A DNA stretch of 13,068 nt from Deltaproteobacteria bacterium. GTDB taxonomy: Bacteria > JAUYMQ01. The notes beneath the pieces are model-generated. The model had not been told where the DNA came from and did not search any database. It was given only the letters and a program-made list of their open reading frames with translations. Location: NCBI GenBank assembly GCA_030698575.1, contig JAUYMQ010000281.1, positions 1 to 13,068 on the forward strand, written 5' to 3'. This document shows, piece by piece, positions 78-13,068 of this stretch. The first letter of the stretch is position 1, and each line of letters starts with the position of its first letter. Position numbers and translations under genes: made by a program.

Positions 78-1727
78 ATGGGCACGCGTCTTGAAAAGCT
101 CCTCAGTGAATTCGAAACCCTGAAGCGCCGGTACGAGATTACCAAAGATCAGCTCTACGAGGCTGAGAAGCAGAACGAGAAGCTCGTAGCGGCTCTTCAG
201 GACGCCAAGACGCAGATCGACGCTCTGAAAGAAGAGGTCGACAAGCTCTGCGCCCCTCCGAACACCTACGGCGTTTTCCAGCGGGCCAACAAGGACAACA
301 CCGTCGAGATCCTGGTCGACGGCCGGCAGATGCGCGTGAACGCGCATCCGCGCGTGGACATTCCCATCCTCCAGGAAGGCCAGCAGGTCGTCCTGAACGA
401 GGCCTTCAACGTTATCGAGGCCTGTGACTACGAGACCCGCGGCGAGGTCGTCACGATCAAGGAAGATCTCGGCGATGGTCGCGCGGTGGTTCTCGGGCGC
501 GCCGACGAGGAGCGCGTGGTCTCCTTCTCGGGTCCTATGCGGCGCCAGAAGCTGGAAGTCGGCGATCCGCTCCTGATCAATCCCAGGACGGGCATAGCCA
601 CCGAGAAGCTGCCGAAGTCGCAGGTCGAGGAAGTCGTACTCGAAGAGGTTCCCAACATCGAGTACAGCGACATCGGCGGACTCAGCGCCCAGATCGAGAC
701 GCTCCGCGACGCCATCGAGCTTCCCTACCTCTATGCCGACGAATTCCGGAAGCACAAGCTCAATCCGCCGAAGGGCATCCTTCTGTACGGCCCGCCGGGG
801 TGCGGCAAGACGCTCATTGCGAAGGCGGTGGCCCACAACCTCGCCAAGCGTATCGAGGAGCGGAGCGGCAAGGAAACACGGAGCTACTTCCTCAACGTGA
901 AGGGGCCCGAACTGCTCAACAAGTACGTGGGCGAGACGGAACACAAGATCCGCGAGGTCTTCAAGAAGGCGCGGGAGAAGGCCGAGCAGGACATGCCCGT
1001 CGTGCTGTTCTTCGATGAGATGGATTCGCTCTTCCGGCTTCGTGGATCCGGGATTTCCTCGGACATGGAAGCCACCGTGGTCGCGCAGTTCCTTTCGGAG
1101 ATCGACGGCGTCGAATCGCTGAGAAACGTGATCGTCATCGGCGCTTCGAACCGTCAGGACCTGATCGATCCCGCCGTGCTTCGGCCGGGCCGGCTCGATC
1201 TGAAGATCAAGGTTGCCCGCCCGGGTGAGGCCGGTGCGACGGAGATCTTCTCGAAGTACCTCACGCCCGATCTTCCGTTCCATGAGGACGATCTGGCTGC
1301 CTACGGCGGCGATCCGAAGAAGCTCGTTGAAGAGAAGATCGTCCAGATCGTCTCGGAGATGTATGCCACGAGCGAGGAGAACAAGTTCCTCGAGGTGACT
1401 TACGCCAAGGGCGATCGCGAGGTGTTCTACTTCAAGGACTTCTCGAGCGGCGCGATGATCGAGAACATCGTGGCCAGGGCGAAGAAGATGGCCGTGAAGC
1501 GGTACATCACGATCGGTGAACGGGGGATAAAGTTCACCGATCTCGAGCAGGCGGTCCGCGACGAGTACAAGGAGAACGAGGATCTGCCGAACACGACGAA
1601 CCCCGACGACTGGGCCCGGATCTCCGGCGCCAAGGGAGAGCGGATCGTCAACGTGCGGACGCTCATCAGTGGCATCAGCCGGAACGAGAAGACCATCGAG
1701 AACGTCACGGCCGGCCAGTACCTGTAA
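78..1727 (+). CDS. mpa: Proteasome-associated AAA ATPase (Mpa/ARC)
   Basis: Ring-forming unfoldase that captures pupylated proteins and threads them into the 20S proteasome in the cytoplasm. Visible in order over 549 residues: an N-terminal heptad-rich coiled coil (about 1-57), which binds Pup in the family; two OB-type interdomain segments (about 62-190); then one AAA module. The module has Walker A GPPGCGKT (238-245), pore loop KYVG (282-285), Walker B VVLFFDE (308-314), sensor-1 Asn358 and arginine fingers Arg369/Arg372. The segment [19 protein letters not shown] (437-455) and the stretch [18 protein letters not shown] (500-517) match mycobacterial Mpa closely. The protein ends in GQYL, the proteasome-docking tail of Mpa. 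It is about 60 residues shorter than M. tuberculosis Mpa (609). The ATG at 78 has GGAGGAG (60-66) upstream and keeps the whole coiled coil. It is separated from dop by a terminator-like hairpin, so it may be its own transcript. Confidence 0.97.
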
Positions 1728-1742
1728 TTACTGTAAAATCGA

Positions 1743-1770
1743 GCCCGGGCGGGTGGTCTTCCGCCCGGGC
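1743..1770 (+). terminator. Terminator-like hairpin after the ATPase gene
   Basis: A perfect 10-bp inverted repeat GCCCGGGCGG (1743-1752) and CCGCCCGGGC (1761-1770) surrounds an 8-nt loop. It starts 15 nt after the ATPase stop codon. Only a short T stretch follows (CGTTTG), so termination may be partial, or the element may act mainly as a 3'-end stabiliser. The remaining 144 nt to dop contain no gene. A lone TATAAG at 1838-1843 could be a -10 box but lacks a convincing -35. Confidence 0.6.
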
Positions 1771-1914
1771 CGTTTGTCCAGAAGGAGGGGACGGACAGCA
1801 GACCGACAGACCGCTACCCGTATCCGGCCGCATGGTTTATAAGGGTAAGAGTGTGGGAAAGCAGTTCCCTGGAGCGAAAGAGTCCCAGAATCGGCAGGCA
1901 TCACAGGAGCGAGC

Positions 1915-3402
1915 ATGGCGGTCAAGAAGGTAATGGGCACCGAGGTCGAATACGGGATCACAGTCGTCAACGACCGCGACTTCGATCCGATCTCGAGCTG
2001 CGTTCTTCTCGTAAACGCCTATCGCGACAAGACCGATGCGAAGATTCTCTGGGACTATGACCAGGAGAATCCTCTCGCCGACGCCCGGGGCTTCCAGGCC
2101 GACGGCGAGAAGTACACGCCGAACCAGCAGGAGAACATCACCCGCAACAAGACGCTGGTGAACGGCGCCCGCTACTACGTCGATCACGCCCATCCGGAAT
2201 ACTCGACGCCCGAGTGCACGAACGTCCTCGATCTCGTCAAGCACGAGAAGGCCGGCGAGCTCATCCTCGAGCGAAGCCGCATCGAGGCCAACGCGCTCGT
2301 GCCTGATCGCTGCCAGATCCTCGTCTACAAGAACAACAGCGACAGGAAAGGGAACAGCTACGGCTGCCACGAAAACTTCCTGATGGATCGGCGGACTTCC
2401 TTCAAGCAGATCATCGAGAAGTTCATCCCGTTCCTCGTGAGCCGGCAGGTCTACACGGGCGCGGGAAAGGTGGGATCGGAGAACCGGGCCGGCGCCGTCG
2501 ACTACCAGATCAGCCAGCGATCGGACTTCTTCGAGACCGAGGTGGCCCTCGACACCATGGTCAAGCGGCCGATCATCAACACCCGTGACGAGCCGCACGC
2601 CGATCGCGAAAAATACCGGCGACTGCATGTCATCGTGGCCGATTCGAACATGGCCGAGCCGACGATCTACCTGAAGAGCGGCGTGACTGCGATCATTCTG
2701 TCGATGATCGAGGACGGCGCCATCCAGACCGACCTCGTGATAAGAGACCCGGTCAAGGCCATGAAGGAGATCTCGCACGACACCTCCTGCACGAAGAAGG
2801 TCCAGCTCGACAACGGGAAGAAGCTTACCGCGATCGAGCTCCAGGAGGAGTACCTGGATCTGGCGCACAAGTACTTCGCCACCCGGGAAGCCGACGCGGT
2901 CACACGGGACGTGATCGTCCGCTGGGAGTCCGTCCTCAAGCGGCTGAAAGAAGATCCCGATCAGCTCGGCAGGGAGATCGACTGGGTGATCAAGAAGCAG
3001 TTGATTCAGGCCTTCATGAACCGCAAGAACTATACATGGGACAGTCCACGGGTCGGGATGATCGATCTGCAGTACCACGACATCCGGCCGGAAAAGGGGC
3101 TGTATCATCTTCTCGTGAGGCAGGAGAAGGTCGATCGCATCGTCTCCGATCAGGACATCGAGGACGCGGTCTACAACCCGCCGGAGGATACGCGAGCATA
3201 CTTCCGGGGGATGTGCCTCAAGCGGTATGGCTCGGCGATCTTTGGTGTAAACTGGGACTCGATTTCCTTCAACCTCAAGGATCAGCCCATCAAGCGCATC
3301 CTGATGGCCGAGCCGCTGAAGGGGACGAAGGAGCACGTTCAGGAACTTCTCGATAGGTCGACGAGCACCGAAGAGCTCGTTGCGAACCTCACCGCCGAGT
3401 GA
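1915..3402 (+). CDS. dop: Depupylase/Pup deamidase Dop
   Basis: Carboxylate-amine-ligase-fold enzyme that hydrolyses the isopeptide bond between Pup and substrate lysine, and in GGQ-type systems also deamidates Pup. Of 495 residues, GTEVEYG (8-14) provides the metal/ATP glutamates (Glu10 aligns with mycobacterial Glu8). Asp90 in NGARYYVDHAHPEYS is the counterpart of the Dop nucleophile Asp95. The Dop-loop, absent from PafA, is present between WDYDQENPLADARGF (46-60) and the Asp90 motif. The C-terminus WDSISF...PLKGTKEHVQELLD matches Dop rather than PafA. The ATG at 1915 has AGGAG at 1905-1909. The Pup encoded next door already ends in Glu, so only the depupylase activity should be needed here. 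The internal segments GNSYGCHEN and DEPHADREKYRRLHVIV are more PafA-like than in mycobacterial Dop. Confidence 0.96.
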   Translation: MAVKKVMGTEVEYGITVVNDRDFDPISSCVLLVNAYRDKTDAKILWDYDQENPLADARGFQADGEKYTPNQQENITRNKTLVNGARYYVDHAHPEYSTPECTNVLDLVKHEKAGELILERSRIEANALVPDRCQILVYKNNSDRKGNSYGCHENFLMDRRTSFKQIIEKFIPFLVSRQVYTGAGKVGSENRAGAVDYQISQRSDFFETEVALDTMVKRPIINTRDEPHADREKYRRLHVIVADSNMAEPTIYLKSGVTAIILSMIEDGAIQTDLVIRDPVKAMKEISHDTSCTKKVQLDNGKKLTAIELQEEYLDLAHKYFATREADAVTRDVIVRWESVLKRLKEDPDQLGREIDWVIKKQLIQAFMNRKNYTWDSPRVGMIDLQYHDIRPEKGLYHLLVRQEKVDRIVSDQDIEDAVYNPPEDTRAYFRGMCLKRYGSAIFGVNWDSISFNLKDQPIKRILMAEPLKGTKEHVQELLDRSTSTEELVANLTAE

Positions 3403-3425
3403 CGGCGGCCCCGGGAGGCTCCTGA

Positions 3426-3445
3426 GGGCCGGCGTGCGCCGGCCC
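3426..3445 (+). promoter_or_regulatory. GC-rich stem-loop in the dop-pup gap
   Basis: GGGCCGGC (3426-3433) and GCCGGCCC (3438-3445) form a perfect 8-bp stem with loop GTGC. It lies 24 nt after the dop stop and 17 nt before the pup Shine-Dalgarno. No T-tract follows (GGGAAAGG), so it is unlikely to be a full intrinsic terminator. An mRNA processing or stabilising element that raises pup levels relative to dop is plausible, because Pup is consumed stoichiometrically. That role is inference. Confidence 0.5.
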
Positions 3446-3461
3446 GGGAAAGGCAGCACCG

Positions 3462-3470
3462 AAGGAGGAG
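3462..3470 (+). promoter_or_regulatory. Strong ribosome binding site that fixes the pup start
   Basis: AAGGAGGAG contains the full AAGGAGG complement of the 16S rRNA tail, with 6 nt between AAGGAGG and the ATG at 3475. It is the best ribosome binding site in the cluster. It supports the long form of Pup, because the next in-frame Met is residue 59, inside the conserved core. Confidence 0.8.
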
Positions 3471-3474
3471 CAAC

Positions 3475-3738
3475 ATGAAGATCCACGCAATCCTCGGTCG
3501 CGACCCTGACAGCCAGGGCTTGCTCCAGGTTACCCGCGCTGCGGATCAGACCCAGTCGCGGAAGACCCAGGACAAGGAATCGGGAAAGTCCAAGGAGACC
3601 CGGGAAGCCAAGGACCTCTCGGAACGCGGCAAGAAGCTAAAAGAAGACATGGACGAGCTCGTCGACGAAATCGACGAAGTCCTGGAGGAGAACGCTGAGG
3701 AGTTCGTGAAGAACTACATTCAGCGGGGAGGGGAGTAA
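3475..3738 (+). CDS. pup: Prokaryotic ubiquitin-like protein Pup (GGE type, extended)
   Basis: Small, mostly disordered modifier that PafA attaches through its C-terminal Glu to target lysines, marking them for the proteasome. Of 87 residues, the last 35 carry the Pup signature: LVDEIDEVLEENAEEFVKNY (62-81) followed by IQRGGE. This amphipathic stretch is what folds onto the Mpa coiled coil in the family. The end is GGE, so the ligation-competent Glu is encoded directly and no deamidation is required. Classical Pup is about 64 residues, and here there are about 20-25 extra N-terminal residues beginning MKIHAILGRD. Arg84 stands where M. tuberculosis Pup has Lys61 (QKGGQ), while Lys79 sits five residues further in. 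The ending differs from the R(T/S)GE tails I recall for UBact, so I call it Pup. It sits between dop and prcB, and its TAA is 1 nt from the prcB start. Confidence 0.95.
   Translation: MKIHAILGRDPDSQGLLQVTRAADQTQSRKTQDKESGKSKETREAKDLSERGKKLKEDMDELVDEIDEVLEENAEEFVKNYIQRGGE
3725..3735 (+). promoter_or_regulatory. Ribosome binding site for the TTG start of prcB
   Basis: The purine run GGGGAGGGGAG lies inside the last pup codons and ends 4 nt before a TTG codon at 3740. No in-frame ATG occurs until residue 73, well after the catalytic Thr. TTG is therefore the only start that retains the propeptide and has a ribosome binding site. Confidence 0.65.
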
Positions 3739-3739
3739 A

Positions 3740-4543
3740 TTGTTCTTCGGGAAAGGCCGTTATGATGGCTCTTCCTTCATCGAGCTTTTGAGGACCGAGT
3801 GCGAGCATCTGACGCCTCGCCTCGACATCGCGGCCGACAACGACGGCCGGCTTGCCAGCGGCATTCCGCATGGCACCACCGTCGTCGCCCTTCGCTATGC
3901 CGACGGGGCCGTGATTGCGGGCGACCGCCTGGCGACTGAGGGTTATCAGGTCGCGATGCGCAGCATCGAGAAGGTCTTCAAGACCGATGAACATTCGGCG
4001 ATGGCGATCGCGGGCGCCGCCGGGCCCTGCATCGATATGGCGCGACTGTTCCGGATCGAGCTGGAGCACTACGAGAAGATCGAGGGCGTCGAGCTCGACC
4101 TCGAAGGGAAGGCCAACAAGCTGGGACAGATGATCCGGCAGAACCTCCCCATGGCCATGCAGGGGCTGGTGGTCGTGCCGATCTTCACCGGCTTCGATCT
4201 CAAGCTCTCGAAGGGGCGTATTTACAAATACGACGTGACCGGCGGCCACTACGAGGAAACCGACTATTACGCGATCGGCTCCGGCGGAAAGGATGCCCGC
4301 AGTTCCTTCAAGAAGACCTACCGGACCAACGCCTCCGAGGAGGAGGCGCTCCGGATGGTTCTCGAGGCGCTCTTTGACGCCGCCGACGAGGACCGGGGCA
4401 CGGGCGGCGTCGACTCGGTCCGCGGCATCTACCCGACGGCGAAGACCGTGACCAGCAAAGGCATTATCGACATCCCCGAGGATCGGATCCGGGCCCTGTA
4501 CGAAGGCGTTCTGGCGAATCGGCGCGCGGTGGAGGCTGCCTGA
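3740..4543 (+). CDS. prcB: Proteasome subunit beta PrcB
   Basis: Catalytic Ntn-hydrolase subunit of the 20S core, made as a proenzyme that self-cleaves to expose an N-terminal Thr. In the 267-residue precursor, IPHG|TTVVALRYADG places the cleavage after Gly45 and the nucleophile at Thr46. Counting from it as Thr1, the family's Asp17 and Lys33 are both present (Asp62 in AGDR, Lys78 in IEKVF). GSGG at about 180-183 and the long helices after it fit the beta fold. The propeptide of 45 residues is a little shorter than the 57 of M. tuberculosis. It begins with TTG 1 nt after the pup stop, which suggests coupling to pup translation. Its last stop base is the first base of prcA, consistent with balanced alpha/beta synthesis. 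Confidence 0.96.
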   Translation: MFFGKGRYDGSSFIELLRTECEHLTPRLDIAADNDGRLASGIPHGTTVVALRYADGAVIAGDRLATEGYQVAMRSIEKVFKTDEHSAMAIAGAAGPCIDMARLFRIELEHYEKIEGVELDLEGKANKLGQMIRQNLPMAMQGLVVVPIFTGFDLKLSKGRIYKYDVTGGHYEETDYYAIGSGGKDARSSFKKTYRTNASEEEALRMVLEALFDAADEDRGTGGVDSVRGIYPTAKTVTSKGIIDIPEDRIRALYEGVLANRRAVEAA

Positions 4544-5241
4544 TGGCGATGCCCTTCTACGTTTCGCCCGAACAGATGATGCAGGACAAGGCCGAGTATG
4601 CCCGCAAGGGCATAGCCCGGGGGAAGTCCATCGTCGCGATCGAGTACCAGGACGGAATCGCACTGGTGGCCGAAAACCCCAGCCGCAGCCTTTCGAAGCT
4701 CTCCGAGATATATGACAAGATCGCATTTGCCGGAGTCGGGAAGTACAGCGAGTTCGAGAACCTCCGCAAGGTCGGGATCCGCTACGCCGACGTGAAGGGG
4801 TACTCCTACAGCCGACACGACGTCACCGCCAAGTCTCTCGCGAACGCCTACTCCCAGGCCATCGGGCAGGTGTTCACGCAGGAGATGAAGCCGCTCGAAA
4901 TCGAGATTCTCATTGTCGAGGCGGGCGATGAAGGCCATCCGAACGAGATGTATCATCTTCTCTACGACGGAACGATCACCGACTACCGGCGATTCGTCGT
5001 GATGGGAGGCGCGAAGGAATCGGCGATGCAACTTCTCGAGGAGTCCTATCGCGACAACCTGACGTTGACCCAGGCTGTTGATCTCTGCCAGAAGGCGCTC
5101 CTCAAGACGAACGGAAACAAGGAGCTGACGGCCGACACGATCGAGGTCGCGATACTGAACCGAAAGCGAGGGGGCAGAAAGTTCCAGCGGCTCCAGGCCG
5201 CAGAGCTTCAAGCAATACTGGAGGAGGCGGGGAGCGCCTGA
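4543..5241 (+). CDS. prcA: Proteasome subunit alpha PrcA
   Basis: Non-catalytic outer-ring subunit that gates the 20S core and receives the C-terminal tail of the ATPase. Its 232 residues open with MAMPFYVSPEQMM, aligning with M. tuberculosis MSFPYFISPEQAM, the gate region. Next come ARKGIARGKSIVAIEY (20-35) and AENPSRSLSKLSEIYDKI (43-60), the conserved alpha-type segments. FVVMGG (151-156) is also family-typical. There is no processing site or N-terminal Thr, as expected for alpha. The ATG at 4543 overlaps the prcB TGA as TGATG, with GGAGG at 4531-4535. The C-terminus is shorter than the mycobacterial acidic tail. Confidence 0.96.
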   Translation: MAMPFYVSPEQMMQDKAEYARKGIARGKSIVAIEYQDGIALVAENPSRSLSKLSEIYDKIAFAGVGKYSEFENLRKVGIRYADVKGYSYSRHDVTAKSLANAYSQAIGQVFTQEMKPLEIEILIVEAGDEGHPNEMYHLLYDGTITDYRRFVVMGGAKESAMQLLEESYRDNLTLTQAVDLCQKALLKTNGNKELTADTIEVAILNRKRGGRKFQRLQAAELQAILEEAGSA

Positions 5242-5244
5242 CCA

Positions 5245-6651
5245 ATGCGGAAGAGAATCTTCGGCCTGGAAAATGAGTACGGGATCGTCTTCACCCCGGA
5301 AGGCCGAAAGACCTTGCCCGTCGAGAAGGCGATCCGCTTCCTCTTCGAAAAACTCATTACCACCGAGCACTTCCTCAACGTCTTCCTCGAAAACGGCGCG
5401 CGATTCTACCAGGACACCGGTTGCCACCCCGAGTACGCCACTCCCGAGTGCGCTTCGCCGCGCGACCTCGTGCTCTATGATCGCGCGGGCGAGCGAATCC
5501 TCGAGGATCTTCAGGCCTACGCCGAGGGCAAGGTGCGCGAGGACGGCGTCGCCGGGACCCTTTCGATCTTCAAGAACAACACCGACTTCGTGGGAAATTC
5601 CTACGGTTGCCACGAGAACTACCTGGTCGACCGCGACGTTGACTTCTACTACCTGGCAGAGCAGCTCATCCCGTTCCTCGTCACGCGCCAGATCTATACG
5701 GGTGCGGGCAAGGTCTTCCAGACGCAGGACGGCGTTCACTACTGCATAAGCCAGCGCGCGCAGCACATCTATCAGAAGATCTCGGGAACCACGACGAACG
5801 ACCGGAGCATCATCAACACGCGCGACGAGCCGCACGCCGACCGCGAGAAGTACCGGCGGCTCCACGTGATTGTCGGCGATTCGAACATGTCGGAGTACAC
5901 CAATTTCCTCAAGGTTGGCACCGCAGCGGTCGTCCTTCAGATGATTGAAGACAACTTCATCAAGAAGGATCTGACGATGCGCAACCCGGTCAAGTCGATC
6001 AAGGACATTTCCTACGACGTGACCTGCAAGAAGCGGATTCGCCTCGATAACGGGAAGGAGTACAGCCCGATCGAGATCCAGCGCGAGTACCTCGACCTGG
6101 CGCAGGACTATCAGGAGCGCTACGGAGTCGACGATCAGCTCAAGGACGTCATCCAGAAGTGGGCCTACGTGCTGGGCAAGCTCGAGGACGACCCCAACAA
6201 GCTCGATCGGGAAATCGACTGGGTCATCAAGCGCCACATGATCGAGGAGTACCTCGACCGCCGTGGAATGCGGTGGACCAACCCGCGCGTCTATATGATG
6301 GATCTCCAGTTCCACGACATCCGGCGGGACAAGGGGCTGTTCTACTTGCTCGAAAGGACGGGCCGCGCCGAGCGCATCCTGAATGACGAGGAGATCGAGC
6401 ACGCCAAGGAGCATCCGCCGAGCGATACGCGCGCCAAGCTGCGGGGCGACTTCATCAAGCTCGCCCGGAAGAACAATATCCAGTACGATCTCGACTGGTC
6501 GAACATCCGGCTCGGCAATCTTCTGAACGTCCGCGTCATCTGCAACAACCCTTTCGAGACCGACACCGAGAAGGTGACCGAGCTGGTAAGGACGATCCAG
6601 AAGACGAATCTCCGCAAGACCTCGCTCTCGAAACTCGTCATCCAGAGCTGA
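5245..6651 (+). CDS. pafA: Pup--protein ligase PafA
   Basis: ATP-dependent ligase that phosphorylates the C-terminal Glu of Pup and joins it to a substrate lysine. Of 468 residues, RIFGLENEYG (4-13) gives Glu9 and Glu11 at the same positions as in M. tuberculosis PafA. Asp57 in NGARFYQDTGCHPEYATPEC aligns exactly with the mycobacterial catalytic Asp57. FKNNTDFVGNSYGCHENYLV and the INTRDEPHADREKYRRLHVI block are diagnostic. There is no Dop-loop between Gly13 and Asp57, which separates it from the paralogue encoded by dop. The C-terminal Pup-groove domain (WSNIRLGN onward) is present and the length is close to the 452 of M. tuberculosis. It starts 3 nt after the prcA stop with GGAG at 5231-5234, so it is the last core gene of the operon. 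Confidence 0.96.
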   Translation: MRKRIFGLENEYGIVFTPEGRKTLPVEKAIRFLFEKLITTEHFLNVFLENGARFYQDTGCHPEYATPECASPRDLVLYDRAGERILEDLQAYAEGKVREDGVAGTLSIFKNNTDFVGNSYGCHENYLVDRDVDFYYLAEQLIPFLVTRQIYTGAGKVFQTQDGVHYCISQRAQHIYQKISGTTTNDRSIINTRDEPHADREKYRRLHVIVGDSNMSEYTNFLKVGTAAVVLQMIEDNFIKKDLTMRNPVKSIKDISYDVTCKKRIRLDNGKEYSPIEIQREYLDLAQDYQERYGVDDQLKDVIQKWAYVLGKLEDDPNKLDREIDWVIKRHMIEEYLDRRGMRWTNPRVYMMDLQFHDIRRDKGLFYLLERTGRAERILNDEEIEHAKEHPPSDTRAKLRGDFIKLARKNNIQYDLDWSNIRLGNLLNVRVICNNPFETDTEKVTELVRTIQKTNLRKTSLSKLVIQS

Positions 6652-6662
6652 CGGCGCTAGCG

Positions 6663-8315
6663 ATGCACCGGGCCGGCATCATCATTGTCTTTCTGGCCGT
6701 AACCGCCTCCTATCTTCCGTTCGTTGACAAGGCATTTCATCTCGACGATCCGGTCTACCTGCGCGTTGCCCATGAAGTAGTCGCAGACCCCGCGAATTTC
6801 TACGGGTTCGACATCAACTGGTACGGCTACTTCGCGCCCGTCTATGAGGTCAACAAGAACCCGCCGCTGGTCAGCTTCTACGTCGCCGGCATGGCTCAGC
6901 TCGTCGGCTGGAGCGAACGCGGCGTGCATCTCGCGATGCTCCTGCCCGCCCTCGGACTGATTCTCGGAACCTATCTGCTTGCTCGCCGTCTGGGGGCCCA
7001 GCCGCTCGTGGCGGCGCTCGCCACCTGGCTCACGCCCGTGGTCCTGGTCTCGAGCACCACCGTCATGTCCGATGTCCTCATGCTGGCCCTCTGGTGCTGG
7101 GCGGTGTTCTTGTGGGTGAGCGGGCTCGAGGAGAGAAGCACCCCGCGACTGATCGCGGCGGGCCTGCTCATGGGCCTCTGCGCGCTCGCCAAGTACTTCG
7201 GCCTCGCCCTGACACCGCTGCTGCTCGCCTACGGGCTTTTCCGTGAGCGGCGCGCCGGGGCCTGGCTGCTCGTTTTCCTGATTCCCGTCGCCATCGTGGG
7301 GGCCTATCAGTTCTACGTTCGCGCCCGCTACGGGCTGGATCCCCTGATGGACGTGGCGCAGTACGCGCTCACGCTGGAGTCCAAGAGCAGATACAGCTAT
7401 CCGGAGAAGCTGCTGGTGGGTCTGGTATTTCTCGGCGGATGTCTTCTCCCGACCCTGCTCTTTGCGCCCCTTTGCTGGTCGCGCTCCGTTCTCGCGGGGG
7501 GGCTTGGCGCCCTGGTCGCTGGCGCGGCCGCCGTCCCCCTGGTCGGAGAGCTGGGCGGCTTTCCCCTGGCGGCGGCAGGGGCGATCCGGTGGGGCGTGGC
7601 GCTGCAGGTCGTGATCTTCGCACTGGCCGGCGCGCAGATCATCGCCCTCGCGGCCGCGGATCTCAGCCGGCGGCGGGACGCAGGCGCTCTCCTGCTCGTG
7701 CTCTGGGTGGGGGGCGTCTGGATCTTCGCAACCTTCACGAACTGGACCACAACGGCCCGGGCGGTGCTTCCGGCCGCGCCCGCCGTCGGAATCGTGATAG
7801 CCCGCCGCCTCTCTCTTACAGAGTCGGCGTTCTCCCTTTCGCGAAAGCGGTTCATAACGATTGCGCTCGTTGTGGGGCTGCTCATTTCAGGGGCTGTGGC
7901 CTGGGGCGACTACAGGCTTGCCGGTTCGGCCCGTTCGGCGGCGGAGGAGCTTTCGGGCCGGTACGCGCGGGGGGGAAGCCGTCTGTTCTTCCAGGGTGGA
8001 TGGGGTTTCCAGCACTACATGGAGAAGGCCGGGGCAACGCGCACGAGCTGGGACGGCACGCAGTTCTCGCCCGGCGACATCCTGCTCGTGCCGGGCCAGG
8101 GCTCGAACCTCTTTCCGCCTCCGCAGAATCTCACCCGGGTTCTCGAGGAAGTGAAGTACACGCCGACCTCCTGGATCTCCGTCATGTCCAAGCTGGAGGG
8201 CGCGGGTTTCTACGCATCGCTCTTCGGTCCGCTCCCCTTTGTCTTCGGTCCGACCTCGCCCGAACGCTACTACGCCTTCCGCGTCGAGAAACCCTTCGTT
8301 CTGAAGCGAGAGTAG
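6663..8315 (+). CDS. GT-C fold membrane glycosyltransferase (PMT/ArnT-like)
   Basis: Polytopic inner-membrane protein of 550 residues, probably transferring a sugar from a polyprenyl-phosphate donor on the outer face of the membrane. The substrate is unknown. Seen: a first membrane span (about 5-20), then the loop motif FHLDDPVY with Asp28-Asp29, typical of the catalytic Asp in the first extracytoplasmic loop of GT-C enzymes. A KNPPL motif (65-69) resembles the (H/K)PPL of PMT-type proteins. About ten further hydrophobic spans follow between 88 and 412, including a TARAVLPAAPAV segment. A soluble domain (about 418-550) ends the protein and contains no motif I recognise. It starts 11 nt after pafA without a clear Shine-Dalgarno, so it is probably read through from the proteasome operon. 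A functional link to pupylation is not shown. Confidence 0.8.
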   Translation: MHRAGIIIVFLAVTASYLPFVDKAFHLDDPVYLRVAHEVVADPANFYGFDINWYGYFAPVYEVNKNPPLVSFYVAGMAQLVGWSERGVHLAMLLPALGLILGTYLLARRLGAQPLVAALATWLTPVVLVSSTTVMSDVLMLALWCWAVFLWVSGLEERSTPRLIAAGLLMGLCALAKYFGLALTPLLLAYGLFRERRAGAWLLVFLIPVAIVGAYQFYVRARYGLDPLMDVAQYALTLESKSRYSYPEKLLVGLVFLGGCLLPTLLFAPLCWSRSVLAGGLGALVAGAAAVPLVGELGGFPLAAAGAIRWGVALQVVIFALAGAQIIALAAADLSRRRDAGALLLVLWVGGVWIFATFTNWTTTARAVLPAAPAVGIVIARRLSLTESAFSLSRKRFITIALVVGLLISGAVAWGDYRLAGSARSAAEELSGRYARGGSRLFFQGGWGFQHYMEKAGATRTSWDGTQFSPGDILLVPGQGSNLFPPPQNLTRVLEEVKYTPTSWISVMSKLEGAGFYASLFGPLPFVFGPTSPERYYAFRVEKPFVLKRE

Positions 8316-8349: not shown

Positions 8350-9438
8350 TCAGGATCGCGATTCCGCGTTCGGCGCGGGCGCGGCGCGGGGGCGCTTCTG
8401 GTAGCGGCGGACGGCGCGGTTGTGCTCGGCCAGGGTGCGCGAGAACGCGTGCGAGCCGTCGTTCCGGCTTACGAAGTAGAGGTAGTCGTCGGGCGCGGGC
8501 TCGAGCACCCCTCGCAGGGCCGCCCGGCCCGGATTGGCGATCGGTCCCGGCGGGAGTCCCGCGCGGACGTAGGTGTTGTAGGGACCGGGCCGGGCGAGGT
8601 GCTCGCGCGTCAGGTTGCCGTCAAAATCCGCTATCCCGTAGATGACCGTCGGATCACTCTGGAGCCGCATGCCCAGGCGCAGGCGGTTCAGGAAGACGGC
8701 GGCGATGAGCGCCCTCTCCCCGGGGACGCCGGTTTCCTTCTCGACGATGGACGCGAGCGTCACGATCTCGTGCTCGCTGAGATCCCCCCCCGCCTCCGCT
8801 CCTGCAGCGGCCTTTTCCTCGGCGTAGACCTCCCTGAAACGTGAAACGAGCCGCTTCAGAATCGCCCCGGCGGACATTCCGCGCGTGAAGGCGTAGGTAT
8901 CGGGAAAGCAGTAGCCCTCGAGCGTCTCTCCGGGCAGATCCAGCGCGCGGGCGAAAGCCGGGTCGCCGGACAGCGCCAGGAGTTCCGCCCGTCGCGCGAG
9001 ATTGGCCCCCGCGATGGCGTCGGCCATCTGCGCGACGGTCCACCCTTCCTGCAGCGTCACGAAGTGGCGCTTCGTGCGGCCGCTCCGCAGGATCGTGAGG
9101 ACCTCCCAGGGAGATCCCCCCTCGGCGAATTCGTATTCCCCCGCCCGGAGTTCCCCCTGCGCCCCTGCGGCGAAAGCGAGCATGACGAAAAGCCGGGGGC
9201 GCCCGATCACGCCCGCGTCCTCGAGGGCCGCGGCGATGTCGGCCAGCCCCGCTCCTTTCGAAATGTCCACGACGGCGGGCGACTTCGAATGGGGGGTCGG
9301 GGTGCGCGCCCAGAGGGCGAAAAGAAAGACGGCGGCGATCAGGACGAGTGAAGCCAGGACGACGAGGGGCCCGAGCAGGCGGCGGGCAAGGCTCCACCGA
9401 TGCGGCGGGGGCGCGGGCTGGGGGGCCGGGTCACTCAT
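8350..9438 (-). CDS. mltG: Endolytic peptidoglycan transglycosylase MltG (YceG-like)
   Basis: Inner-membrane lytic transglycosylase that cuts nascent glycan strands and so helps terminate peptidoglycan chains. With the ATG at 9438 it has 362 residues. A Pro-rich cytoplasmic tail is followed by one membrane anchor (about 22-43), then a LysM-like/YceG region (about 55-125). The catalytic block is LASIVEKETG, with the likely Glu at about 233. RLGMRLQSDPTVIYG and YNTYVRAGLPPGPIANPG are signature motifs of the family. The start overlaps the ruvX stop as ATGAGTGA (8 nt), suggesting coupled translation. Another in-frame ATG at 9453 would add five residues, and neither start has a strong Shine-Dalgarno. 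A diderm or other walled cell is implied. Confidence 0.93.
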   Translation of the reverse strand: MSDPAPQPAPPPHRWSLARRLLGPLVVLASLVLIAAVFLFALWARTPTPHSKSPAVVDISKGAGLADIAAALEDAGVIGRPRLFVMLAFAAGAQGELRAGEYEFAEGGSPWEVLTILRSGRTKRHFVTLQEGWTVAQMADAIAGANLARRAELLALSGDPAFARALDLPGETLEGYCFPDTYAFTRGMSAGAILKRLVSRFREVYAEEKAAAGAEAGGDLSEHEIVTLASIVEKETGVPGERALIAAVFLNRLRLGMRLQSDPTVIYGIADFDGNLTREHLARPGPYNTYVRAGLPPGPIANPGRAALRGVLEPAPDDYLYFVSRNDGSHAFSRTLAEHNRAVRRYQKRPRAAPAPNAESRS

Positions 9439-9862
9439 TGCGGGGCGGCGCATGCTTGATCGACTCGATATAGCCTTCGAGGATGAGTTGCGCGGCGATG
9501 CGATCGACCAGCTGCCGTTTCTTCGATCCCCTGACCCGCCCCTCGGCGAGCGCCCGCTCCGCGGCGACCGTGGTCATCCGCTCGTCCCAGGTGTCGACCG
9601 GAATGCCGAGCGCCTCCCCCAGCTCGCGGGCGAAGGCCAGCGCCTCCTCCGCCCGGGGCCCCGGGGTGCCGTTCATGTTGAGGGGAAGCCCCAGGACCAC
9701 GCGCTCGACGCCATGGGCCTCGACCAGCCCCCGGACCGCCTCGATGAAACCCTTCCGGCCGCGCCGTTCGATGGTCGGCAGGCCCTGGGCGGTCAGGCCG
9801 AGGGGGTCGCTGAGCGCGACGCCGACGCGCCGGGTTCCGAGGTCGAGGGCAAGAATTCGCAT
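9431..9862 (-). CDS. ruvX: RuvX/YqgF family RNase H-like nuclease
   Basis: Member of the YqgF/RuvX family (RNase H fold), implicated in 16S rRNA 5'-end maturation and in Holliday-junction resolution. The 143-residue protein begins MRILALDLGTRRVGVALSD, with the first catalytic Asp at position 7. LGLPLNMNGT (58-67), DERMTT (93-98) and VDRIAAQLIL (119-128, Asp120) complete the family pattern. Length is close to the 138 of E. coli YqgF. The frame stays open upstream to an ATG at 9940, but that stretch contains the promoter at 9912-9940, so the start at 9862 is preferred. It is the first gene of a two-gene unit with mltG. Confidence 0.92.
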   Translation of the reverse strand: MRILALDLGTRRVGVALSDPLGLTAQGLPTIERRGRKGFIEAVRGLVEAHGVERVVLGLPLNMNGTPGPRAEEALAFARELGEALGIPVDTWDERMTTVAAERALAEGRVRGSKKRQLVDRIAAQLILEGYIESIKHAPPRNE

Positions 9863-9911
9863 GGGGCGGCGAGAATCTCCGGCGCGGGGTGTGAGCTGGG
9901 GGGGAGAGAAA

Positions 9912-9940
9912 ATTATGGCCTCCGGGGCGCCCCGCATCAA
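9912..9940 (-). promoter_or_regulatory. Sigma70-type promoter for ruvX-mltG with palindromic spacer
   Basis: On the minus strand TTGATG (9940-9935) and CATAAT (9917-9912) are separated by exactly 17 nt, matching the -35 and -10 consensus at 4/6 and 5/6 positions. Transcription would begin near 9905, about 43 nt before the ruvX ATG. The spacer contains a perfect 12-bp palindrome CGGGGCGCCCCG (9923-9934), a possible operator, though chance in GC-rich DNA is possible. Confidence 0.6.
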
Positions 9941-10046: not shown

Positions 10047-10613
10047 GTGTACGAGCAGCGAATCCAGAAGCTCAAGGTGATGCTGAAGGACGCCATTCCC
10101 GAGGTTCGCAACGCGGCGGCCCAGGCCATCGATCAGCTTCAGGCGAAGGCCTCGATCGATCGCTTCCAGCAGATCCTGGAGGGGGACGACAACGCCGCAA
10201 AACTCCGGGCCGTCTACGCCCTGAGCGAGCTGGACGGCGATGAGTCCCTGAAGCTCATCGTGGGGGCCCTGAAGAACGACAGCCCCGATGTCCGGTGCAC
10301 GGTCATCCGAATTCTCGGCGAGAAGGCCGATCCGCGCACGCTCGGTCCGGTCTTCGAGCAGCTCGACGATCCCGATCCCGCCATCCAGGCGCTGGTCATC
10401 GAGGCGCTCGGCAATTTCCGTGATCGGCGGCTGGCGGACAGCTTCCTTTCGATGCTCTCGAGCGACAACCCAGACATCCTGACCCGCGTGGTGATCGCCC
10501 TGGGACGCCTGGGCGAAACGCGCGCCGAGCAGGCCTTCGTCGAGCTCCTGGGTCACCCGCAGCCCGCCGTGCGCGAGGCGGCAGCCGGCGCTCTCGGCTC
10601 CCTCGGCGCCTGA
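10047..10613 (+). CDS. Small HEAT-repeat protein
   Basis: An all-helical scaffold of 188 residues with six tandem HEAT/PBS-lyase-type repeats at a strict 31-residue period, beginning at about residues 17, 48, 79, 110, 141 and 172. Each repeat has the pattern xPDVRxxxIxxLGxL, for example SPDVRCTVIRILGEK and QPAVREAAAGALGSL. There is no signal peptide, membrane span or catalytic motif, so it is probably a cytoplasmic protein-binding module. The start is GTG at 10047, preceded by GGAGGGAGGGG (10033-10043). No in-frame ATG precedes the second residue of the first helix. It is divergent from ruvX and converges on the HD-GYP gene, whose upstream partner also encodes HEAT repeats. A shared pathway is possible but unproven. 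Confidence 0.85.
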   Translation: MYEQRIQKLKVMLKDAIPEVRNAAAQAIDQLQAKASIDRFQQILEGDDNAAKLRAVYALSELDGDESLKLIVGALKNDSPDVRCTVIRILGEKADPRTLGPVFEQLDDPDPAIQALVIEALGNFRDRRLADSFLSMLSSDNPDILTRVVIALGRLGETRAEQAFVELLGHPQPAVREAAAGALGSLGA

Positions 10614-10634
10614 CCCCGACCTGACCCGCGTTTG

Positions 10635-11987
10635 CTAGCCGATGTATTTCGCCGGATCGATTCCGTAAAGGATGGGATTCGTGCTCGCGACGACCTCACG
10701 CCTCTCGCCGCCGGGGCCTGTCGCGTCCTTCAACAGATCCACCTCCAGAGGCTCCGGAAGCAGCGCACCTCCACTCTCGATGATGATCTTGACCTTGGGC
10801 AGGGTGACGTCGAGGTGATTGGGCGTGATGATCACGCCAATCTCGTTCGTGGTGAGCCGGACGTAGGTCCCGGCGGGGTACGTCCCGAGCATGTCCACGA
10901 AACTCTCGAGCATGTCGGGGTCGAGATCCTTCCCCGCCAGGCGCCTCATGAGCTTGACGGCCTCGGTTGCAGGGCGGGGTTTTTGGTAGGGCCGCAGTGT
11001 CGTGAGCGCGTCGTAACAATCCGCGATCGCCACAGCCATGCTGTAGGGGTGCACCGTCCGGGACTTCTCGATGGTGGGGTAGCCCTGCAGGTTGTACTTG
11101 ACGTGGTGCATCAGGATCATCTCGTGCGCGGAGTGGGGAATGCTCTTCATGCGGGAGACGATCTCCGCCCCGAGAACCGGGTGCTTCTTCATGATGGCCA
11201 TTTCTGCTTCCGTGAGGCTCCCGGGCTTCTTGATGATCTCTTCAGCCGTTCGGACCTTTCCCACGTCGTGCAGCATCCCCGCCAGGCCGACGGCACGCAT
11301 TTCCTCGCCGCGCAGCCCCTGGTGGGCCGCAAAGGCAAGGCAGAGGATGCCGACGTTGATCGAGTGAACGTAGGTGTAGTCGTCGTAGCCCTTGAGCATC
11401 GTGAGCGCGAGCAGGGCGTCCTTATCCTTGAGGACAACATCGCTCATCTCGGCGATGACGCCGTTCGCCGTCTCGCCCGAAGGGATGCGCCCCATGCGCA
11501 ACTCGGACATGATGTCGAAGACCACGGTGAGAGAGCGATCGTAGACCTCCCGCGCACGTTCGCGGAGATCCTCCTCCTGCAAATCCTTGATCTTGATGTG
11601 CTCGACCCGCTGCTCAGCCAGGACGGCGGCGATGCCTCCCTTCGCCACTGCGTCTTCAATTTTCAGTGCCAGGGCGTTCACGAGGGCGGTCAGCTCTTCC
11701 TGGGCGAGGCCGCCGCTGAAGGTGATCGACTCGATCTGGTGACCCTTCAGGCGCCCGTAGATTTCCTTCCAGAGGCTGTCGGTTTCGTAGAAGGGGATTT
11801 CATCGAACAGGAGCACGTCATCGATGATTCCCATCACGAGCGGATCGCGCTCCTTGAAGAGGGCGACGATCCTCTCATGAGCCTGCTGAACCGGCCGGGA
11901 TATGGCGGGATGTGACGGCGGGTAGAGGCTCAGGTTCCTGAGCGCGCTGCAGAAGAGCTTTGCCGTCTGTGTCAGTGCTTCCTTCAT
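10635..11987 (-). CDS. HD-GYP-type phosphohydrolase domain protein (degenerate motif)
   Basis: Cytoplasmic protein of 450 residues. Residues 1-180 are mainly helical with no recognised sensor domain; they contain LYPPSHPAI (21-29), a segment I associate with N-termini of similar proteins. Residues about 195-375 form an HD-GYP domain, a family that degrades cyclic di-GMP: HSINVG (208-213), LHDVGK with His240-Asp241, KHPVLGAEI (268-276), MHHVKYNLQGYP (293-304) and IADCYDALTTLRPY (321-334). In the signature HHExxDGxGYP, the Glu, Asp and first Gly are replaced by Val, Asn and Leu, while HH and GYP remain. Activity may be altered or lost, leaving a binding role. Residues about 376-420 form a small beta-rich tail. 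The ATG at 11987 lies 25 nt after the upstream HEAT gene, so the two are probably co-transcribed. The frame is open further upstream but would overlap that gene. Confidence 0.88.
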   Translation of the reverse strand: MKEALTQTAKLFCSALRNLSLYPPSHPAISRPVQQAHERIVALFKERDPLVMGIIDDVLLFDEIPFYETDSLWKEIYGRLKGHQIESITFSGGLAQEELTALVNALALKIEDAVAKGGIAAVLAEQRVEHIKIKDLQEEDLRERAREVYDRSLTVVFDIMSELRMGRIPSGETANGVIAEMSDVVLKDKDALLALTMLKGYDDYTYVHSINVGILCLAFAAHQGLRGEEMRAVGLAGMLHDVGKVRTAEEIIKKPGSLTEAEMAIMKKHPVLGAEIVSRMKSIPHSAHEMILMHHVKYNLQGYPTIEKSRTVHPYSMAVAIADCYDALTTLRPYQKPRPATEAVKLMRRLAGKDLDPDMLESFVDMLGTYPAGTYVRLTTNEIGVIITPNHLDVTLPKVKIIIESGGALLPEPLEVDLLKDATGPGGERREVVASTNPILYGIDPAKYIG

Positions 11988-12012
11988 GGTCGTCCTGTCG
12001 CCTTCCGGGTGC

Positions 12013-13068
12013 TCAGCCCTTTGCCTCGGCATGAAGTGCGGTGCGGCAGACCCGGGCGATCTCCCGGTTGCCCGAGTCGACGCCGCCCGCAAGAACGGCC
12101 CGCGCCTCCTCGGTGTCGATGCGCGCGAGCGCCTGGGCGGCGATGACGCGCAGCCCCTCGTTCCTGGCCCGCGCGAGCAGCGAGCGCCGCCTGAAGAGCC
12201 GTCCGAGCAGCGGAACGGACTGCGGCGTGCCGATCTTGGCCAGGGCCTTGATGATTTCATGTTGCAGCGCGAGATTCGTGAAGACCACGCGGCGCGGGAG
12301 CATGGCGCCCAGGGCCGGGATGGCCTCGTGGTCGCGCAGCACCCCGAGCGCGAATGCGGCCAGCAGCTGCAACTCGCCGCGGGCGTGGGTCAGGAAACGC
12401 TCTAGAACCTTGCGGGACTCCGGATGCCGGATTTTGCCGAAGGCCCGGAGCGCCTCTTTTGCCACCCGTGGCTCCGCGTTCGAGGTAAGCGGCTCGAGGC
12501 TCGAAAGGGAGGAGGGATCTCCGATCTCGCCGAGAATGGCCACCGCGTTGCGTATGACGTACCAGCGATCGTCATTCAGGACATCGAGCAGCGGCGGCAC
12601 GGCCGCTTCCCCGAAACCGCGTATGACGGTCGAGAGAACGCGGCGCGCGTGGATGACCTTCGCGCGCCCCAGGTGGTCAATGAGCTGGGGAATGATCTCG
12701 GAACTCATCTGTCCGAGCAGCGTGATGAGCTTCGCGGCGGCGCCTGGCCGCGAGGCCATCGCCTTGTCGACCAGGAAATCGATGGCCGGCGGCGTCGCCA
12801 GCTCGCGAAGCGCCCAGAGGGCGTGGGGAACGAGATCCCGCTCGCGATCCTCGCGCCCGGCGGCGTGGGAGGAAAGAACGCGCAGGGCGCGGTGGACGTC
12901 CTCGAGTTCGGCGGGGGGTGATGCCGAATTCACCAGCGAGACCAGTGCGGCGGCGCGCTCGCCGTAGGCGCGCGCCTCGGTCGCGGCGTTCAGCTCCAGG
13001 AGGAGCTTGACGATCTGCTCCTGCAGGGGCGTTGCGTCTTCGGGAAGCGCGAACGGATCTTCTTCGGG
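12013..13068 (-). CDS. HEAT-repeat protein, N-terminus outside the window
   Basis: The reading frame is open without a stop to the window edge (at least 351 residues), so the gene is cut at its 5' end. A GTG at 12933 has been a possible start, but the coding pattern continues upstream as helical sequence (EQIVKLLLELNAATEARAYG), so I treat the gene as partial. The visible part is a chain of HEAT/armadillo-type helical repeats of about 31-38 residues, such as DRWYVIRNAVAILGEIGDPS and NAEPRVAKEALRAFGKIRHPE. It has no membrane span, and no catalytic motif is seen. It lies directly upstream of the HD-GYP gene on the same strand and could be its partner scaffold. The product's function is unknown. 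Confidence 0.85.
   Translation of the reverse strand, partial: PEEDPFALPEDATPLQEQIVKLLLELNAATEARAYGERAAALVSLVNSASPPAELEDVHRALRVLSSHAAGREDRERDLVPHALWALRELATPPAIDFLVDKAMASRPGAAAKLITLLGQMSSEIIPQLIDHLGRAKVIHARRVLSTVIRGFGEAAVPPLLDVLNDDRWYVIRNAVAILGEIGDPSSLSSLEPLTSNAEPRVAKEALRAFGKIRHPESRKVLERFLTHARGELQLLAAFALGVLRDHEAIPALGAMLPRRVVFTNLALQHEIIKALAKIGTPQSVPLLGRLFRRRSLLARARNEGLRVIAAQALARIDTEEARAVLAGGVDSGNREIARVCRTALHAEAKG

Follow-up and report, generated by a model that had tools for sequence, protein, structure and literature searches.

A predicted classical Pup-proteasome system with an N-terminally extended Pup in a Myxococcota-related bacterium

Does the gene cluster at positions 78-6651 of contig C442, from a metagenome-assembled genome (MAG) labelled as a Deltaproteobacteria bacterium, encode a complete and intact Pup-proteasome system outside Actinobacteria? 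To answer this we analyzed the entire contig of 13,068 bp, hereafter the window. The cluster lies on the plus strand in the order ATPase-dop-pup-prcB-prcA-pafA, so that the coordinates bear out the classical arrangement claimed in an earlier sequence-only reading of this DNA (the original prediction). The intergenic gaps from the ATPase through pafA measure 187, 72, 1, -1 and 3 bases, and the last five genes, dop to pafA, form the tight run that the same reading had described.

Each of the six products matches its own family in NCBIfam or Pfam profile comparisons. The first gene (78..1727, +) codes for a proteasomal AAA ATPase of the Mpa/ARC type, recovered by TIGR03689 at 734.6 bits (cut-off 504.75) and by the Pfam OB_N, OB_C and AAA models; it combines an N-terminal coiled coil (judged by eye), a double OB module and an AAA domain with a C-terminal GQYL, its Walker A motif GPPGCGKT beginning at residue 238, its Walker B motif FFDEMD at residue 311, and its pore loop, K-Y-V-G, bearing an aromatic residue. 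The depupylase/deamidase Dop (1915..3402, +; TIGR03688, 578 bits, cut-off 492.3) aligns with the solved Dop, falls on the Dop branch of our tree and retains E10 and D90 together with the Dop loop ILWDYDQENPLADARGF. Pup itself (3475..3738, +) is 87 residues long, scores 73.4 with PF05639 (cut-off 27) and 54.7 with TIGR03687 (cut-off 41.45), aligns with the C-terminal half of Mycobacterium tuberculosis Pup, and has the tail QRGGE; being encoded as GGE, it is predicted to be ready for ligation without deamidation. The beta subunit of the 20S proteasome, PrcB (3740..4543, +; TTG start; TIGR03690, 301 bits, cut-off 191.9), has a 45-residue propeptide followed by Thr46, matched in alignment by the first residue of the mature actinobacterial beta subunits, and has Asp62 and Lys78 as expected, while the alpha subunit PrcA (4543..5241, +; TIGR03691, 315.9 bits, cut-off 139.05) is further identified by PDB matches to bacterial PrcA proteins. 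The Pup ligase PafA (5245..6651, +), which lies on the PafA branch and is 81% identical to its counterpart in locus L022, scores 550.7 bits with TIGR03686, 0.6 bit below the strict cut-off of 551.3, yet 130 bits above its score with the Dop model (420.4); it has E9 and D57 and lacks the Dop loop. Hence the full complement of six core parts asserted in the original prediction is present, and every active-site residue and motif that it named proved intact.

These features also bear on which ubiquitin-like system is encoded, as Gram-negative bacteria have another such system, UBact. Loci resembling UBact (L018 in genome G005 and L017 in G039) share with the window an ATPase, two PafA-family enzymes, PrcA, PrcB and a small tag-like open reading frame (ORF), and a UBact-type assignment was accordingly considered; it was rejected, since the tag passes both PF05639 and TIGR03687 and ends in QRGGE. 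Moreover, the enzymes of the UBact-like loci are very divergent, the window's PafA and Dop lying far from those of G005 and of the second G039 locus, and the small ORFs neighboring them end in RTG[EQ] (RTGE or RTGQ) as against QRGG[EQ]. We regard the UBact alternative as having a negligible probability. All the hallmarks of the classical system, namely a Pup helix with a GG[EQ] end, both PafA and Dop, 20S alpha and beta subunits with the catalytic Thr, and an Mpa/ARC ATPase, are found in the sequence. As a separate observation, G039, which groups with Poribacteria by PafA and Dop, has a classical Pup locus (L016, 5779-12303) in addition to its very divergent UBact-like one (L017, 7640-14446; ORF end RTGE). 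In G005 the divergent ATPase, PafA-like, PrcA and PrcB genes with a 58-residue ORF ending in RTGQ (L018, 7436-14063) include the sole PafA-family pair seen in that genome.

We then examined the identity of the host. In a tree of 48 RpoB sequences the MAG (RpoB on contig C48) is sister to MAGs labelled Deltaproteobacteria or Myxococcota, with a Shimodaira-Hasegawa-like approximate likelihood ratio (SH-aLRT) support of 99, and IF-2 (contig C301) weakly supports the same placement. When named genomes were scanned with PafA, the top eleven matches, at 77-84% identity, were all MAGs with these two labels, followed at 49-55% by NC10, Nitrospira, Rokubacteria, Poribacteria and Actinobacteria. Based on the RpoB and IF-2 placements and these best PafA matches, the host is, as judged from sequence, a non-actinobacterial, Myxococcota-related bacterium. 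The neighboring class presumably corresponds to UBA9160 of GTDB. A search for relatives inside the window's own phylum recovered only the MAG itself, the sole genome of that phylum searched. As the MAG (4.13 Mb, completeness 91.6%) is scattered over 653 contigs with 4.6% contamination, and the contig is just 13 kb long, the locus could in principle be a binning contaminant from another organism, such as a relative of the Myxococcota MAGs. However, RpoB, encoded on a different contig, points to the same neighbor clade and stands in the same relation to it, sister and not inside, as do PafA and PrcB; furthermore, the GC content at third codon positions (GC3) of the Pup genes (0.81-0.87) agrees with that of their neighbors (0.82-0.88) and of rpoB (0.85). 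We consider contamination improbable, at around one chance in twenty, and even a contaminant locus would still be non-actinobacterial and from the same clade.

The gene trees, from which Pup was omitted as too short, point in the same direction. When 117 PafA and Dop sequences are placed in one tree, the two families separate and the window joins the Myxococcota-type MAGs in each (support 100 and 99), as it does in the trees of PrcB (99/97) and of the ATPase (100). PafA, Dop, ATPase and PrcB all fall outside the actinobacterial sequences, which were those closest to the query (from the best 80 loci) and thus a biased sampling of Actinobacteria; these four trees, the RpoB placement and, weakly, IF-2 uphold the proposal that the system lies outside Actinobacteria. 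As grounds against itself, the original prediction had named a tree in which the genes all nest inside a Gram-negative Pup clade that is well studied: the nesting was largely found, but the clade concerned is not a well-studied one. From pairwise identities one might suspect that the operon was acquired recently by horizontal transfer, with Actinobacteria or Nitrospirota as the donor, as the best matches of PrcA and PrcB are to Nitrospirota (59% and 62%). Yet the PrcB, PafA, Dop and ATPase trees all join the Myxococcota-type clade, in which the system is present class-wide, and the identity pattern fits a faster change of PrcA and PrcB in that sister clade, as seen in its long stem branches: between the window and loci L022-L032 the core particle is only 49-57% identical, as against 77-84% for PafA. 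A dip in GC content over the Pup genes (about 0.60 versus 0.61-0.71 elsewhere in the window) was weighed as possible evidence of transfer but set aside, because their GC3 equals that of the neighbors; the match in GC3 with neighbors and rpoB gives no hint that foreign DNA was inserted recently. Such a transfer we rate as very unlikely, marginally more so than contamination.

The operon order is identical in eight of the Myxococcota-type MAG loci (L022, L024-L028, L030 and L031), and in L029 and L032 the contig cuts off one of the end genes. Downstream of the window's operon, on the opposite strand, lies an MltG-RuvX pair (8350..9940, -; identified by Pfam and NCBIfam), and it recurs in the same position and orientation in L023, L024, L026 and L028-L031. 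Because of the gene trees, the shared operon order, the shared MltG-RuvX pair and the equal GC3, we propose that the Pup operon has been vertically inherited within the Myxococcota-type clade; a transfer long ago, on the stem lineage of that clade, is also conceivable. Some observations weigh against this proposal: the support for the IF-2 placement is weak (64/87), the PrcA tree fails to resolve the position of the window, and both marker genes sit on contigs separate from the Pup genes in a fragmented and partly contaminated MAG. Taken together, we assign a probability of about 0.92 to the reading that this is a functional, vertically inherited classical Pup-proteasome system. Two further patterns emerged from the same trees. 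In G032 (L003, L021), PafA, Dop, PrcA and the ATPase adjoin the window's clade, the first two in the joint tree, and RpoB falls elsewhere, making it a candidate for interphylum operon transfer or a binning error. The PafA and Dop proteins of Rokubacteria (L040, L054) are sister to the actinobacterial ones, which bears on the origin of the actinobacterial system.

The claim that such a system is rare in this setting did not hold up. Pup was detected above the cut-off in 78 of 377 genomes sampled from the phylum of G068 (a UBA4427 MAG), all 78 in a single class; in that class, to which one of the window's nearest relatives belongs, 78/90 genomes have Pup and 76/90 have PrcA above the cut-off. 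As most of the genomes are draft MAGs, these fractions make the Pup-proteasome system a standard trait of this whole Myxococcota-related class. Its occurrence outside Actinobacteria has been in print since 2008, when Pup genes, with products of 50-90 residues, were described from deltaproteobacteria, Nitrospirae, Planctomycetes and Verrucomicrobia, the deltaproteobacterium being one without linked proteasome genes (PMC2588565); a 2020 paper again reports pupylation genes beyond Actinobacteria (PMC7947786). In the part of the literature covered by our searches (UBact; UBA9160; Pup in Myxococcota or Poribacteria), we found no paper describing the system of this clade. By its sequence, the locus is hence best described as a sound further instance of a system already known: real, intact and mostly ordinary. 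By implication, a phylum-level sister lineage of this class also possesses a complete set of proteasome and ubiquitin-like tagging components, and the label "actinobacterial" is too narrow. Two genomes of the survey, G243 (contigs C7 and C43) and G423 (C24 and C115), each have Pup twice, with both copies sharing their contig with a PrcA, and represent either duplicate loci or mixed bins.

By homology with Actinobacteria, we predict that PafA would ligate the C-terminal glutamate of Pup to lysines of target proteins, deamidation being dispensable for a tag encoded as GGE, and that Dop would remove Pup from its targets. The coiled coils of the Mpa/ARC-type ATPase would bind the Pup helix, with threading proceeding from the N-terminus, and the ATPase would dock through its GQYL tail on the 20S core that PrcA and PrcB form, itself activated by cleavage ahead of Thr46. 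Among the relatives (L022-L032, L168-L207) the Pup end alternates between GGE and GGQ, and it seems that a requirement for Dop as deamidase was repeatedly gained and lost. The MAG additionally encodes HslV and HslU (L165, contig C405, about 1470-3402 of the locus), so that two chambered proteases of the Thr type are to be expected in this organism.

The feature in which the locus departs from the familiar pattern is the N-terminus of Pup. Its first 23 residues (3475..3543, +) extend beyond the 64-residue length of M. tuberculosis Pup; by alignment, subtracting 23 from a residue number of the window's Pup gives the mycobacterial number. With start codons chosen by ribosome-binding site, we compared 51 Pup loci of the clade (two from the same genome) with 44 others from Actinobacteria, Nitrospirota and Poribacteria. 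The clade Pups have a median length of 88 residues, 46 being extended (82-100) by about 20-30 residues and five measuring 66-67, whereas the others have a median of 64, with 43/44 falling within 62-71 and lacking the extension; the lone long one is likely a wrong start choice. The Pup of G032 is also long, at 96 residues from its best-placed ATG. Just ahead of the canonical start the clade displays a motif, [IVL][YWFV]xAA, in which position -3 (I, V or L) and position -2 (Y, W, F or V) are each hydrophobic in 95% of 44 sequences, which are related and not independent; by these column counts the window has a weak form of it, VTRAA (3529..3543, +). This N-terminal extension with its conserved motif looks new. 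It could be objected that the extension is untranslated, with the real start internal (an in-frame TTG inside the window's Pup would yield 72 residues, and in some relatives the canonical start still has an ATG), or that it forms a leader removed by processing. However, the ATG of the window's Pup is backed by a 7-base AAGGAGG ribosome-binding site, as against a 3-base match for the inner TTG; several relatives have no inner start codon in Pup; and, along with the constraint on positions -3 and -2, the ratio of nonsynonymous to synonymous change (pN/pS) across 16 close pairs amounts to 0.70 for the extension, as against 0.27 for the core. The value of 0.70 fits an extension that is translated but loosely constrained, and we hold the objection to be unlikely, though less so than contamination or recent transfer; removal of the segment once translated is conceivable.

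What might such an extension do? In a structural study of the mycobacterial Mpa-20S complex, the N-terminus of Pup enters the pore first, with residues 1-15 in the pore, M1 about 35 Å from the 20S gate and residue 22 close to where the pore opens; according to its authors, this stalled step may be rate-limiting (PMC8755798). The 23 added residues, spanning about 75 Å if extended, would precede M1 and exceed the roughly 35 Å to the gate. The extension may provide a longer threading segment that goes further into the pore of the ATPase and into the 20S gate with the helix still held by the coiled coils, the motif being placed just past M1, near pore loop 2. We tentatively posit that it acts as a built-in initiator, long enough to arrive at pore loop 2 as well as the 20S gate, and eases the early stall of the short mycobacterial Pup; we think this somewhat doubtful, and the weakness of the window's own motif, with T at -2, counts against it. 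If true, there would be a Pup variant with altered engagement mechanics in both the Myxococcota-related class and its phylum-level sister. In any case, the extended Pup represents natural variation in the segment that is threaded first, making the limits of Pup engagement testable by swaps of N-termini.

Among the other flanking genes, a PMT_2-type glycosyltransferase-like membrane protein (6663..8315, +; PF13231) starts 11 bases past pafA; it had no match near the Pup operon in the relatives searched and has no known link to the system. The segment at 10047-13068 codes for an HD-domain protein (HD_5/HD) flanked by HEAT-repeat proteins.

In comparison with known systems, the locus resembles that of M. 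tuberculosis and other Actinobacteria in its six components, gene order, catalytic residues, GQYL tail and the C-terminal half of Pup, but differs in its host lineage, in the N-terminally extended Pup of 87 as against 64 residues, in the encoded GGE end and in the co-occurrence of HslUV; a search for Bpa gave only a sub-threshold match (E-value 0.016). With Nitrospirota, Rokubacteria, NC10 and Poribacteria it shares a PafA of the classical type, and most of these groups also match it in the order of Dop, PrcB and PrcA, but PafA is only about 50-55% identical and these groups form separate clades; Pup measures 64-66 residues in the Nitrospirota and Poribacteria loci, and none was found in the Rokubacteria or NC10 loci. 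The closest likeness is to the Deltaproteobacteria/Myxococcota MAG loci L022-L032, with which it has in common the operon, the type of Pup extension, a highly similar PafA and, in several, the downstream MltG-RuvX pair; PrcA and PrcB are of low identity, and the window represents a separate, deeper lineage.

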